NCBI RefSeq assembly: GCF_004681185.1
Contig: NZ_SRIF01000001.1
Coordinates: 1,054,001 to 1,118,000, forward strand
DNA: 64,000 nt
Source of the DNA: Haloarcula amylovorans
GTDB lineage: Archaea; Halobacteriota; Halobacteria; Halobacteriales; Haloarculaceae
Direction: 5' to 3'
Positions 7,654 to 40,771 of the stretch are shown one piece after another (within the stretch, counting starts at the first letter, position 1; every line of letters begins with the position of its first letter). Made by a program: the position numbers and the translations under genes. Under the pieces are notes generated by a model, which did no database searches, was not told where the DNA came from, and worked only from the letters and a program-made list of their open reading frames with translations.

Positions 7654-9234
7654 ATGAGTCAACAGGAAGAACCCGACGACGAAACCGAACCGACAGACCC
7701 CGTCGAGGAACTCCGGGAGAAGCGTCGAGAGGCGGAACTCGGCGGCGGCGAAGCACGCATCGAAGCCCAACACGAGAAGGGGAAGATGACCGCGCGCGAG
7801 CGCATCGACTTCCTCGTCGACGAGGGCACCTTCTACGAGGTCGACCCCTTCGTCGAACACCGCTCGACGAACTTCGGGATGGAGGAGAAGCGCTACGCCG
7901 GCGACGCCGTGGTCACGGGCTACGGCGAAGTCGACGGCCGGAAGGTGTTCCTCTTCGCACACGACTTCACCGTGCTGGGTGGCTCCGTCGGCGAAGTCGT
8001 CGCCGACAAGATCTGTAAGGTGATGGACAAGGCCATCGAGAACGGCGTCCCCGTCATCGGGCTGAACGACTCCGGCGGTGCGCGGATTCAGGAGGGCGTC
8101 GATTCGCTGGTCGGCTTCGCCAAGATTTTCGAGCGCAACACGAAGGCCAGCGGACTCATTCCGCAGATTTCGGCCATCATGGGCCCGTGTGCCGGCGGTG
8201 CTACGTACTCCCCGGCGCTGACGGACTTCACGTTCATGGTGCAAGACACCAGCCACATGTTCATCACGGGGCCGAACGTCATCGAGACCGTCACCGGCGA
8301 ACAGGTCTCGAAGGAGGAACTTGGCGGGGCCAGTTCACACTCGACGAAGTCCGGCGTCGCGCACTTCTCGTATCCCTCCGAGGAGGAGGTCTTAGAGAAC
8401 ATCCGCCGCCTGCTCTCGTATCTCCCGCAGAACAACATGGAGGACCCCCCGCGGGTCTCACCGTGGGACGAACCCGACCGCGAGGTACCGGAACTCACGG
8501 ACATCGTCCCCTCCGCACCGCGCAAACCCTACGATATGGAGCAGGTCGTCGGGAGTATCGTCGACGAGGAGTCGTTCTTCGAGGTGTACGGCAACTGGGC
8601 GCGCAACGTCATCACCGGCTTCGGCCGGATGGACGGCCAGTCGGTGGGCGTCGTCGCCAACCAGCCGCGAGTCAGCGCCGGGACGCTGGACATCGACGCC
8701 GCCGAGAAGGCCGCGCGGTTCGTCCGCTTCTGTGATTCGTTCAACATCCCCATCCTCACGTTCGTCGACGTGCCCGGCTTCATGCCCGGCACCGAACAGG
8801 AGCACAACGGCATCATCCGCCGCGGCGCGAAACTCATCTACGCCTACGCCGAGGCGACGGTGCCCCTGCTCTCGGTGGTCGTCCGGAAAGCCTACGGCGG
8901 CGCGTACATCGTCATGTCCTCGAAGTTCCTCGGCAGCGACGTGAACTACGCGTGGCCGGGGTCGGAGATGGCAGTGCTGGGACCGCGCGGCGCGGTCAAC
9001 ATCCTCTATCGGAAGGAGATCGCCCAGGCGGACGACCCCGACGCCAGGCGACAGGAGCTGATGGACGACTTCCGCGAGGAGTTCGCCAATCCCTACGGTC
9101 CCGCGAAACGGGGCTACCTCGACGACGTCATCGAACCGAAGGACACGCGCAAGCGTCTCATCGACGACTTAGACCTGCTCCAGCGCAAGCGCGAAGACAC
9201 TCCCCCAAAGGACCACGGCAACATCCCGTTGTGA
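7654..9234 (+). CDS. pccB: Acyl-CoA (propionyl/methylmalonyl-CoA) carboxylase carboxyltransferase subunit
   Basis: 526 residues, the full length of PccB/AccB5/MmdA carboxyltransferases. Two crotonase-fold halves are visible, with oxyanion-hole motifs GGARIQEG and [12 protein letters not shown] in the N-half and [15 protein letters not shown] and [11 protein letters not shown] in the C-half. It moves CO2 from biotin to propionyl- or acetyl-CoA. Its stop overlaps the next gene's ATG (TGATG), so the small subunit at 9234-9611 is translationally coupled. No biotin carboxylase/BCCP subunit is in this window and it must be encoded elsewhere. The biotin genes at 18-24 kb would supply its cofactor. 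Confidence 0.9.
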
Positions 9235-9611
9235 TGTCTTCCCTCGAATCTTCCACCGAGGACGGTGACGAGGCGACCGAAGACGGCGAGGAAGCGAGCG
9301 AGCGCCGGGCCGAGCAGACGGGAGCGGAGTCCGAGCCGATCCCGACCGTTACGATACCGGCGGGCGAGGAACTCGATGTCTCGCTCCCCGACGACGCGAC
9401 GGCCGCCGAAGCCGCGGCCATCAGCGCCGCTATCGGCGCGCACCTCTCGGACCGTCAGCGGGCCGCTGCCGCGGCCGCTACCCGAGAGAGCACCGACTAC
9501 GTGGACGAGTGGAAACTGGCCAGCCGGCTAGAGCGGTTCGGAAAACATCGCCGCCCCGACAGCGTCGAACGAGGCGACGAGTGGAAAGCCGCGGCGCGAG
9601 CGCGGTATTGA
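9234..9611 (+). CDS. pccX: PccX-like small subunit of acyl-CoA carboxylase
   Basis: 125 residues starting at the ATG that overlaps the pccB stop. The first 35 or so residues are Glu/Asp-rich. The middle (about 45-90) contains V-T-I-P-A-G-E-E-L and an Ala-rich helix resembling the epsilon/PccX type of small subunit that associates with carboxyltransferase subunits. The C-terminus, [16 protein letters not shown], is basic and conserved-looking. In Haloferax mediterranei a small protein, PccX, was found necessary for propionyl-CoA carboxylase activity (established knowledge). Assignment here rests on position, size and composition, because sequence conservation in this family is low. Confidence 0.65.
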
Positions 9612-38196: not shown

Positions 38197-38262
38197 CTAG
38201 TCGGTCACTTCCGCGACACTCTCGGCGATGTCCTCCTCTGCTCACCAGAGATACGTAGGCCG
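38197..38262 (-). pseudogene. Possible C-terminal remnant of a split alkA-type glycosylase gene
   Basis: On the - strand, one frame reads RPTYLW, then an in-frame stop (38242-38244), then AEEDIAESVAEVTD and TAG at 38197-38199. AlkA-type glycosylases end in WRPxRSxAxxYLW plus a short acidic tail. The stop would be CGA to TGA. The piece abuts direct repeat A and has the same orientation as the 5' pseudogene part at 40490-40771, 2.2 kb away. The similarity is short, so this is tentative. Confidence 0.35.
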
Positions 38263-38308
38263 CAGGACCCTCTACAACAGCGTAAGCCACTGTATGTTAC
38301 CTCGTGGC
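38253..38308. repeat. Direct repeat A flanking the nuclease cassette (about 56 bp)
   Basis: ACGTAGGCCGC and, after about 20 diverged bases, AAGCCACTgTATGTTACCTCG. The same blocks recur at 39160-39215 (repeat B), 907 bp away, with about 41 of 51 aligned bases identical. The two copies enclose the three-gene cassette 38372-39160. Confidence 0.65.
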
Positions 38309-38371
38309 CTCCGAAAGCAATCAACTTATTAGATGTATTGCATAGATTTATTTGCAATCATATCATCACAT

Positions 38372-38563
38372 ATGTGTATGTTCGGTGGGAACAACAGCGA
38401 CACGACAAAACTCCAAGACCAGATTCTCCAACAGTGGGACATGGGAGTGTCCAATCCAAAGCAAATCGCTGCCAACTGCGACTGCTCGGAGAGTTATACG
38501 AAAGAAACCCTCAACGAGCACCGTCCAAACTGGAACGACGATAATGGCTTCAGTCTCTTCTGA
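38372..38563 (+). CDS. Small HTH-like protein of the nuclease cassette
   Basis: 63 residues from ATG 38372 (MCMFGGNNSD); an ATG 2 codons later and one at 38333 are also in frame. The segment QQWDMGVSNPKQIAANCDCS followed by SYTKETLNEHRP looks like a helix-turn-helix of the recombinase or sigma-like kind. It overlaps the start of the Mrr-like gene by 20 bp, which implies translational coupling. An AT-rich stretch with TTTATTTGCAATC near 38345 could be the promoter. It may be an autoregulator or specificity partner of the nuclease. Confidence 0.6.
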   Translation: MCMFGGNNSDTTKLQDQILQQWDMGVSNPKQIAANCDCSESYTKETLNEHRPNWNDDNGFSLF

Positions 38564-38987
38564 CCCGCTGACGACACTCCGAAGCCTACCGCCCCGTCAC
38601 TTCGAGCAGTTCGTAGCTGATGTGTGGTCGGAGTGCCAAGGCTGGACAACAGAAGTGATGGACGCTGGTCCAGACAAAGGCCTCGATGTAATTGGCCAGC
38701 CATCGACAGGCGGAGCGAAAACTGCTGTTCAGTGTAAGCGATACGCCGAGGGCAACAAGATCACGAGCGAGCAGATACAGCAGTACGCGGCACTACGTCA
38801 GCAGTGGCAAGATGTCAAGGGCGTCACGGTAGTCACGACCAGTTCGTTCACTCGGAACGCGCTGGAACTGGCCGACCGTCTCAACGTCAAGTGCATTGAC
38901 GGAGACGACCTCGTTCGCTTAGTTCACCGCTACAATGCTTGTGAAATACTGGACTGGTACGGCCAGGGCAAACCGGCCGGTTGGTAA
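38544..38987 (+). CDS. Mrr-like PD-(D/E)xK restriction endonuclease
   Basis: 147 residues from ATG 38544, only the catalytic Mrr_cat domain. LPPRHFEQFVADVW is the helix that opens the fold; GPDKGLDVIG gives Asp48 and AVQCKRY gives the Q63-x-K65 active-site pair; IQQYAALRQQ and VTVVTTSSFTRNALELADR complete the family pattern. Mrr-type enzymes cut modified or foreign DNA. The usual N-terminal DNA-reading domain is absent; the small HTH protein encoded just upstream could supply it. Flanked by direct repeats in an AT-richer island. Confidence 0.85.
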   Translation: MASVSSDPLTTLRSLPPRHFEQFVADVWSECQGWTTEVMDAGPDKGLDVIGQPSTGGAKTAVQCKRYAEGNKITSEQIQQYAALRQQWQDVKGVTVVTTSSFTRNALELADRLNVKCIDGDDLVRLVHRYNACEILDWYGQGKPAGW

Positions 38988-38989
38988 CA

Positions 38990-39160
38990 ATGACAAACGA
39001 TGATGATTTACGATTCGGCGATGTGAATGGAAGTGAAACTAATATGAGTAGTGATGGAATCGTGGGGCTGATGATACGAGGTATTCAAGGACTGGTGGTA
39101 TTTTACGCCCTCCTGAAAGTGGTAGAAATACTGTTCAACGTCCCGATTCCCTTTATCTGA
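38990..39160 (+). CDS. 56-residue single-helix membrane protein of the nuclease cassette
   Basis: ATG 38990, 2 bp after the Mrr-like stop, to TGA 39160. A hydrophilic start (MTNDDDLRFGDVNGSETNMS) is followed by IVGLMIRGIQGLVVFYALLK, a likely membrane helix, and VVEILFNVPIPFI. The last base of its stop is the first base of direct repeat B. Position and size suggest a membrane partner in a defence-type cassette, but no family is recognised. Confidence 0.6.
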   Translation: MTNDDDLRFGDVNGSETNMSSDGIVGLMIRGIQGLVVFYALLKVVEILFNVPIPFI

Positions 39161-39215
39161 CGTAGGCCGCCAAGACTCTATCATGGCGAAAGCCACTATA
39201 TGTTACCTCGCAGCC
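39160..39215. repeat. Direct repeat B flanking the nuclease cassette
   Basis: The partner of repeat A at 38253-38308 in the same orientation: ACGTAGGCCGC, then AAGCCACTaTATGTTACCTCG. On the - strand it can read ESWRPTSD, weakly like the WRPxRS motif of AlkA C-termini. Confidence 0.65.
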
Positions 39216-39411: not shown

Positions 39412-40005
39412 ATGGTTGATGAGGCTAAATCGATACTAAAAAAGGATCCTGTAATGGCAGAGTTGTTAGATGAACACAATCCATACTCTGAACCCGATTG
39501 GACTGAATTTGAGCGACTGTGTATTTCGATAATCAACCAACAACTCTCGACTGCAAGTGCGGCAGCGGTGAAAGAACGGGTATTCGAATTGCTTGACGAG
39601 GAAGTAACACCCGAGAGTGTCTTGGATGCCGATGAGGACAAACTCCGAGACGCTGGACTGTCGAGGATGAAGGTCGAGTATATGCGGAACGCGGCGGAGG
39701 CTTTTCAGGAACGAGACTATTCCCGTGAAGAGCTGTCAGAACACTCAAACGAGGAGATCGTCGAACGTCTCACGGAAATCAAGGGCATCGGTGATTGGAC
39801 TGCTCGAATGTACCTGCTATTCGTAATGGAGCGACCCGACATCCTCCCGTTGGGCGACCTTGCAGTACGGAACGGGATTCAGGAATTGTACGGCGACGGA
39901 GAAGATATGACCCGTGAAGAGATGCGTGAGATAGCAGAGGATTGGCGTCCTCACCGTTCAACGGCTACGAAATACATCTGGGCCGATTACGAATCTGACT
40001 CGTAG
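39412..40005 (+). CDS. DNA-3-methyladenine glycosylase (AlkA-type HhH-GPD)
   Basis: 197 residues from ATG 39412. The N-terminal CISIINQQLSTASA, the hairpin EIKGIGDWTA at 122-131, catalytic Asp149 in PLGDLAV and the C-terminal WRPHRSTATKYIW all match the HhH-GPD alkylbase glycosylases. It removes alkylated purines to start base-excision repair. Base composition is clearly more AT-rich than the surrounding genes. A decayed, GC-rich relative lies 0.5 kb away on the other strand, so this looks like an acquired replacement. Confidence 0.88.
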   Translation: MVDEAKSILKKDPVMAELLDEHNPYSEPDWTEFERLCISIINQQLSTASAAAVKERVFELLDEEVTPESVLDADEDKLRDAGLSRMKVEYMRNAAEAFQERDYSREELSEHSNEEIVERLTEIKGIGDWTARMYLLFVMERPDILPLGDLAVRNGIQELYGDGEDMTREEMREIAEDWRPHRSTATKYIWADYESDS

Positions 40006-40056: not shown

Positions 40057-40463
40057 GGCTCTGTTGAAATCCTATACTTCAGATGGCTTCTTGCGTGAAA
40101 CAGCCGGTAAGTATGTGTGCGAATGTAATAGTGTACGAAGCTGTCAATAGGCGCAGAAAACGATATATTATGTCACTCAAGCGCCAATGGTCACAAAACC
40201 TATTACCAACTAATGATTAGGTCAGAGTAACTGAAATGAACGTAGTTATTCAGTATTCGTTAGAGGGGACAGGAACCATCGGGGATTTGCTCCTTGCTAT
40301 CGCGCTCTTAGTTGGTATCCTTCTTTCTATATTCGTCATAGGTTCCATCTTTGACCGTGTGTTTTAAGCTGATAAGGATGAACCTTGATTCGATAGATAG
40401 TTCGTCTGTACTGCCCACATTAGGTCAGAATATATCATCTGCTTAGGATCTCAACAAAGCTGA
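40057..40463. mobile_element. MITE-like element, about 0.4 kb, no transposase
   Basis: Imperfect terminal inverted repeats: left GGCTCTGTTGAAATCCTA at 40057-40074, right (read inward on the - strand) AGCTTTGTTGAGATCCTA at 40444-40461. TTTTTCA occurs just outside both ends (40050-40056 and 40464-40470), like a target-site duplication. It is AT-rich, with no transposase frame. It was probably moved in trans by an IS with related ends. Confidence 0.5.
40236..40367 (+). CDS. 43-residue single-helix membrane protein inside the MITE-like element
   Basis: ATG 40236 to TAA 40367. A short start, MNVVIQYSLEGTGTIG, is followed by a strong membrane helix (DLLLAIALLVGILLSIFVIG) and a basic end, SIFDRVF. 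CCTATTACCAACTAATG just upstream could serve as a promoter. Whether it is expressed is unknown. Confidence 0.35.
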   Translation: MNVVIQYSLEGTGTIGDLLLAIALLVGILLSIFVIGSIFDRVF

Positions 40464-40489: not shown

Positions 40490-40771
40490 TTACATCAGTT
40501 GCATGTTCGCCGTCCACGCGCCGACGCCGGTGATGGCCGTCAGTTCTGCGTGAACCTCCTCGTCGGAGAGGTCTTCGAAGTACGCGATACTGTAGCCGTG
40601 TTACTCGAACACCTCGACCACCTCGTTGACGTAGCGGGTCTTCTGTCGGGAGAGCCCCGCGTCCCGCAACACGTCGTCGTCGGCCGGAGAAAGCGTGAGC
40701 GTACCGTGCGCCTCGACGAGCGGCCCGATGTTCGGATCGTCGCGGAGCACGTCGTGTGGCGGGTCGGTCAT
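40490..40771 (-). pseudogene. Disrupted alkA-type glycosylase, 5' part
   Basis: From ATG 40771 the frame reads MTDPPHDVLRDDP, jumps by an internal deletion of about 45 codons to DVLRDAGLSRQKTRYVNEVVEVFE, meets an in-frame TAA (40601-40603), then continues HGYSIAYFEDLSDEEV and AITGVGAWTANMQL before running into the AT-rich island. These segments align with DKLRDAGLSRMKVEYM and EIKGIGDWTARMYL of the intact gene at 39412. The C-terminal 60 or so residues are missing; a possible remnant lies at 38197-38262. Confidence 0.75.

Follow-up and report, generated by a model that had tools for sequence, protein, structure and literature searches.

SNIPE is a membrane nuclease composed of DUF4041 and a GIY-YIG domain, in which a TM anchor, a DNA-binding domain and a nuclease together can cut phage DNA at entry; DUF4041 helps to bind DNA, and the TM domain anchors the nuclease, which is thought to prevent autoimmune cleavage (PMC13190303). 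The window analysed here, a stretch of 64,000 nucleotides from Haloarcula amylovorans, contains a cassette of three small genes encoding an HTH protein, an Mrr-type nuclease and a small membrane protein. Its proposed likeness to SNIPE lies in the combination of a TM anchor, a DNA-binding module and a nuclease at the membrane. However, the nuclease fold is unrelated, DUF4041 is absent, the modules are three separate proteins, the host is archaeal, and the defence role is one that we infer. No Pfam match to GIY-YIG or DUF4041 was obtained for any of the three cassette proteins. The cassette would work like SNIPE, yet it is not a member of that system, since its nuclease and accessory domains differ.

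Three other groups of systems are related to the cassette through its nuclease. With Mrr and the type IV restriction endonucleases it has in common the Mrr_cat domain, in which the putative D..D..QxK residues are invariant, whereas in the cassette any recognition would have to be supplied by a separate HTH protein, and none of the close cassettes lacks a membrane partner. Zorya is likewise a membrane-linked defence system, and the cassette Mrr protein matched the Mrr-like domain of ZorD at 8e-12, but neither ZorA/ZorB motor genes nor a SWI2/SNF2 helicase was found among the neighbouring genes. Finally, the PADLOC candidate PDC-S02 was matched by the Mrr domain at 2e-14. The PDC-S02 profiles describe single proteins of about 320-390 positions and were matched only in their C-terminal part, and no HTH or membrane partner was matched. 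The initial annotation knew of no described defence system of this composition. No model in PADLOC-DB 2.0.0 matched the HTH or the membrane protein, and no paper with this three-gene composition was found in the literature searched, which excluded most subscription papers.

Composition and recurrence of the cassette

The three genes overlap or abut within 38378-39160 and lie between two direct repeats of about 56 bp, the cassette being only about 780 bp long in all. The features are as follows.

38253..38309, + strand: direct repeat A, upstream of the cassette promoter
38345..38353, + strand: putative TATA element TTTATTTG, read from the sequence and identical in the sister species G015
38378..38563, + strand: HTH gene, 61 aa from the start codon common to the homologues
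38544..38987, + strand: Mrr-type PD-(D/E)XK nuclease gene, 147 aa, catalytic domain only
38990..39160, + strand: small membrane protein gene, 56 aa, with the invariant DDDLRFGDV motif followed by one hydrophobic segment
39159..39215, + strand: direct repeat B, touching the TGA stop codon of the last gene

If translation begins at the upstream ATG (38372), the HTH protein is 63 aa long. The HTH and Mrr genes overlap by 20 nt, and the gap between the Mrr and membrane genes is 2 nt. The putative TATA element is located approximately 26-30 nt upstream of the HTH start, a spacing that suggests a leaderless transcript. A scan for bacterial-type promoters and terminators gave nothing above chance, and an Rfam search gave no match.

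A close Mrr protein was found in six of 146 genomes of the family, including Haloarcula amylovorans. These proteins are 68-94% identical to that of Haloarcula amylovorans, and the next-best match in the order-wide sample reached only 52%. The order HTH-Mrr-membrane protein was found in all of the other five genomes (G015, G064, G024, G119 and G089), so that the three-gene cassette is present in six genomes at five different sites. At all six loci, the HTH gene is upstream and overlaps the Mrr gene by 17-23 nt, and the small membrane gene is downstream, a few nucleotides from Mrr. Halomicroarcula rubra F13 (L033), a relative from the same genus, is among the carriers of the cassette. At locus L034, the Mrr protein and a 2-TM protein are present and the upstream part is a run of N; in genome G200, the HTH gene is kept and Mrr is reduced to its first codons.

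The pN/pS ratio was below 1 for all three frames in every pair compared, and all three frames are by this measure under purifying selection. The initial annotation had described a compact unit of three genes, with the HTH domain and the tiny membrane protein each encoded separately, a view that would have failed had the genes never co-occurred elsewhere or had the HTH and membrane frames shown no selection. Because the genes co-occur in five further genomes and all frames are under selection, neither is the case; both small frames are real genes that are conserved in other cassettes.

The distribution of the cassette is patchy across several haloarchaeal genera, which is consistent with horizontal transfer. 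A viral origin was considered and rejected, since the viral contigs contained no relative of the whole cassette, only distant Mrr proteins. Phage and plasmid records likewise contained only distant Mrr proteins (at most 49%), and four plasmid regions that were examined had architectures other than that of the cassette. In G024, a C5 cytosine methyltransferase gene is located a few kilobases upstream of the cassette.

Nuclease, HTH and membrane modules

The Mrr protein matched Mrr_cat (PF04471) at 2e-22 with 79.9 bits, against a gathering score of 21, and the match spans residues 12-126 of 147, i.e., the whole catalytic fold. As the initial annotation had supposed, it consists of the catalytic domain only; unlike Mrr proper, the type IV restriction enzyme, it has no N-terminal DNA-recognition domain. 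Residues E21, D44, D48, Q63 and K65 are invariant in six loci, and D44, D48, Q63 and K65 are taken here, from knowledge of the family, as the putative active site. The structural model (pLDDT 82.9) matched MspJI and AspBHI with E values from 1e-6 to 4e-5. Both the nuclease fold and the putative catalytic residues are intact.

MspJI and AspBHI, the closest folds, are both modification-dependent, and the PADLOC hits of the Mrr protein include type IV restriction endonucleases. The cassette could accordingly be a conventional type IV restriction system, modification-dependent and cytosolic, whose functions are divided between two proteins: the HTH protein would recognise DNA and Mrr would cut modified DNA, with the membrane protein being accessory or regulatory. 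This appears unlikely, because the membrane protein gene is retained in every close cassette, related loci have a TM segment fused to Mrr itself, and the HTH protein is a minimal three-helix domain that, from family knowledge, is without a base-flipping pocket such as SRA.

The HTH protein was modelled as three helices (residues 11-21, 27-34 and 38-48; AlphaFold2, mean pLDDT 75.8). Only weak GerE and HTH_29 matches were obtained, with no significant family match, and the structural matches of the model were mostly DNA-binding domains, none of them significant for so short a protein. The HTH and Mrr profiles found nothing when searched against PDB sequences. The HTH protein is 48-97% identical across the six other loci, with pairwise pN/pS values of 0.05-0.57 between loci, and could act as a repressor alone.

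In many toxin-antitoxin operons, a small HTH gene comes first and overlaps the effector gene. The same arrangement here, together with the nuclease fold of Mrr and the island-like mobility of the cassette, would fit abortive infection or a toxin-antitoxin pair, in which the HTH protein restrains or represses Mrr, the released Mrr degrades host DNA, and the membrane protein is a sensor of membrane disturbance or a toxin. However, the HTH gene is under selection comparable with that of the nuclease in most pairs, and the membrane protein has an invariant acidic motif and an interchangeable TM part, rather than being a bare hydrophobic toxin. Such a function is accordingly considered improbable.

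The membrane protein of Haloarcula amylovorans has one hydrophobic segment (hydropathy peak 2.04) and no significant family match. Whole-protein identity across the other cassettes is 29-57%, but the N-terminal DDDLRFGDV is identical in all seven loci, and anchors of the 1-TM and 2-TM types are both joined to this same motif. In a search of 175 genomes sampled from the order, DDLRFGDV was encoded in the window genome only. Thirteen DDLRFGDV matches in viral contigs lie in unrelated proteins or frames. Such a combination of a fixed, probably cytoplasmic peptide and an exchangeable anchor would be expected of an adaptor or tether. The membrane gene is much more divergent from its G015 (L049) counterpart at silent sites than Mrr (pS of 0.87 versus 0.33), and this excess suggests a recombination patch or allele exchange.

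The modules were also found joined in other ways. In G023 and G031 (L015 and L017), the Mrr protein carries a TM segment at its C terminus and its gene is overlapped by an HTH gene, which makes this arrangement a two-gene relative of the cassette. C-terminal hydrophobic segments are also present in several other Mrr proteins of haloarchaea. In genus g25, an HTH-TM fusion of 126-131 aa is related to the cassette HTH protein (L059, L060, L064, L065, L066 and L067), and no Mrr match was found near these loci. The three modules are therefore found as separate proteins, as pairwise fusions and side by side in one operon-like array. These fusions support membrane association of the nuclease. Of the two roles initially suggested for the membrane protein, effector or anchor, they favour an anchor or adaptor and disfavour a pore-type effector. 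Several of the genus g25 HTH-TM loci have the same neighbouring genes.

Direct repeats and the low-GC island

Repeats A and B are 84% identical over 55 ungapped positions; none of 2000 shuffles scored as high, and local blastn gave E = 2e-7. No further copies of the pair were found in the 5-Mb genome at E <= 0.001. The only further covariance-model match in the genome was weak (23 bits), and such matches elsewhere were also weak, at about 23 bits or less. A diverged repeat pair is present at the same site in the sister species G015. The four copies are alike in their within-genome and between-genome similarity (73-84%). Such a pattern would result if the island had entered the common ancestor with A and B still identical and drift had acted on them afterwards. 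The repeats were not found at the other cassette loci examined. The direct repeats, which had been regarded as part of the cassette, proved to be private to the insertion site of Haloarcula amylovorans and G015, where their appearance is that of eroded scars of an insertion.

The genes are bracketed exactly by the two repeats, in which a partly covarying hairpin can be drawn. These features would be expected of a self-mobilising cassette whose HTH and Mrr proteins act on the flanking repeats and thereby excise or insert it, as in a small transposon or an integron cassette. The covariation is suggestive, with some compensatory change; because it comes from four sequences only, the hairpin is not claimed to be functional. 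The attC cores RYYYAAC and GTTRRRY had no match on either strand of any of the four repeats, and a role as attC or integron cassette sites was rejected. The repeats were also rejected as mobility signals more generally, given that other cassettes have no copies, attC cores are lacking and the covariance hits are only weak. Moreover, no recombinase was noted by inspection among the candidate ORFs around the cassette, and what flanks the cassette in G064 is a 72% duplication of a neighbouring gene. Self-mobilisation is disfavoured and must be regarded as very improbable.

The surroundings provide a simpler account of how the cassette is acquired. The cassette of Haloarcula amylovorans sits among housekeeping genes rather than in a defence island; the genes around it, named partly by inspection, include those for a RimK-like ATP-grasp protein, cysE, glycosylases and metabolic ORFs. 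A low-GC island of approximately 2.3 kb is located between the RimK-like ATP-grasp gene and cysE, with a GC content of roughly 42-56% versus 61-69% in its surroundings. It begins with the HTH, Mrr and membrane genes. Three glycosylase features adjoin them.

38206..38253, - strand: C-terminal stub that remains of the native HhH-GPD gene and ends at repeat A
39412..40005, + strand: foreign HhH-GPD glycosylase gene (HhH-GPD, 4.8e-18)
40493..40771, - strand: decayed N-terminal remnant of the native HhH-GPD gene, in which 42 aa are deleted and a stop is present, detected by tblastn with native proteins

The foreign protein is approximately 45% identical to the native copy of the genus; with most of its best matches, which come from other genera, it shares 63-75% identity. 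In the 12 other genomes of the genus that were checked, an HhH-GPD gene lies antisense beside the RimK-like gene and, in most of them, is followed by cysE; in G015, only the C-terminal stub of the native gene is left. The cassette arrived together with the foreign HhH-GPD gene in a low-GC island, which broke the native glycosylase gene. The foreign glycosylase gene, opposite in orientation to the native one, may replace it. A 43-aa ORF with one strongly hydrophobic segment (40236-40367) lies in the island downstream of the foreign glycosylase gene; in the alignment, G015 has no counterpart of this stretch.

In G064 (L050), the cassette is flanked by a 233-bp duplication of 72% identity (oriented coordinates 7872-8104 and 9156-9388). 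It takes in the 5' end of a gene that was called CinA-like on the basis of its sequence, one copy of which is truncated. This duplication and the pieces of the native glycosylase gene suggest that, when the cassette moves, fragments of adjacent genes move with it. Its movement would most simply be explained by recombination after DNA transfer.

A possible membrane-linked nuclease

Our proposal is that the cassette provides an Mrr nuclease, split and membrane-linked, by which incoming DNA is restricted; this reading falls a little short of being probable. The small membrane protein would anchor itself through one or two helices, with its N terminus predicted to be inside, and its cytoplasmic DDDLRFGDV motif would hold Mrr, or a complex of Mrr and the HTH protein, at the membrane. 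The HTH protein would either provide DNA contact or repress the operon. Tethering would keep the Mrr nuclease away from the chromosome and place it where viral or conjugative DNA enters, so that the incoming DNA would be cut. Speaking for this reading are the gene order kept in five other genomes, the fusions, the intact nuclease fold, the patchy distribution, the methyltransferase gene near the G024 cassette and the precedent of SNIPE; against it stand the location among housekeeping genes, the absence of any whole-cassette relative from the viral contigs and a possible role of the HTH protein as repressor only. Gene linkage, selection, nuclease fold, motif conservation, fusions and patchy distribution are shown, whereas complex formation, topology, target and defence are what we infer here; a defence role of the cassette is plausible. 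A more specific claim, possible but doubtful, is that the cassette constitutes a new defence system of archaea, an independent, split counterpart of SNIPE: the tiny DDDLRFGDV adaptor would tether a three-protein Mrr nuclease to the membrane, and foreign DNA would be cut on entry.

If this mechanism holds, haloarchaea would use the principle of SNIPE with unrelated parts, self and non-self being told apart by place and not by sequence. The cassette offers a small, testable set of genes and a specific adaptor peptide to mutate, and it shows by example how modules for nuclease activity, DNA binding and membrane attachment split and fuse.
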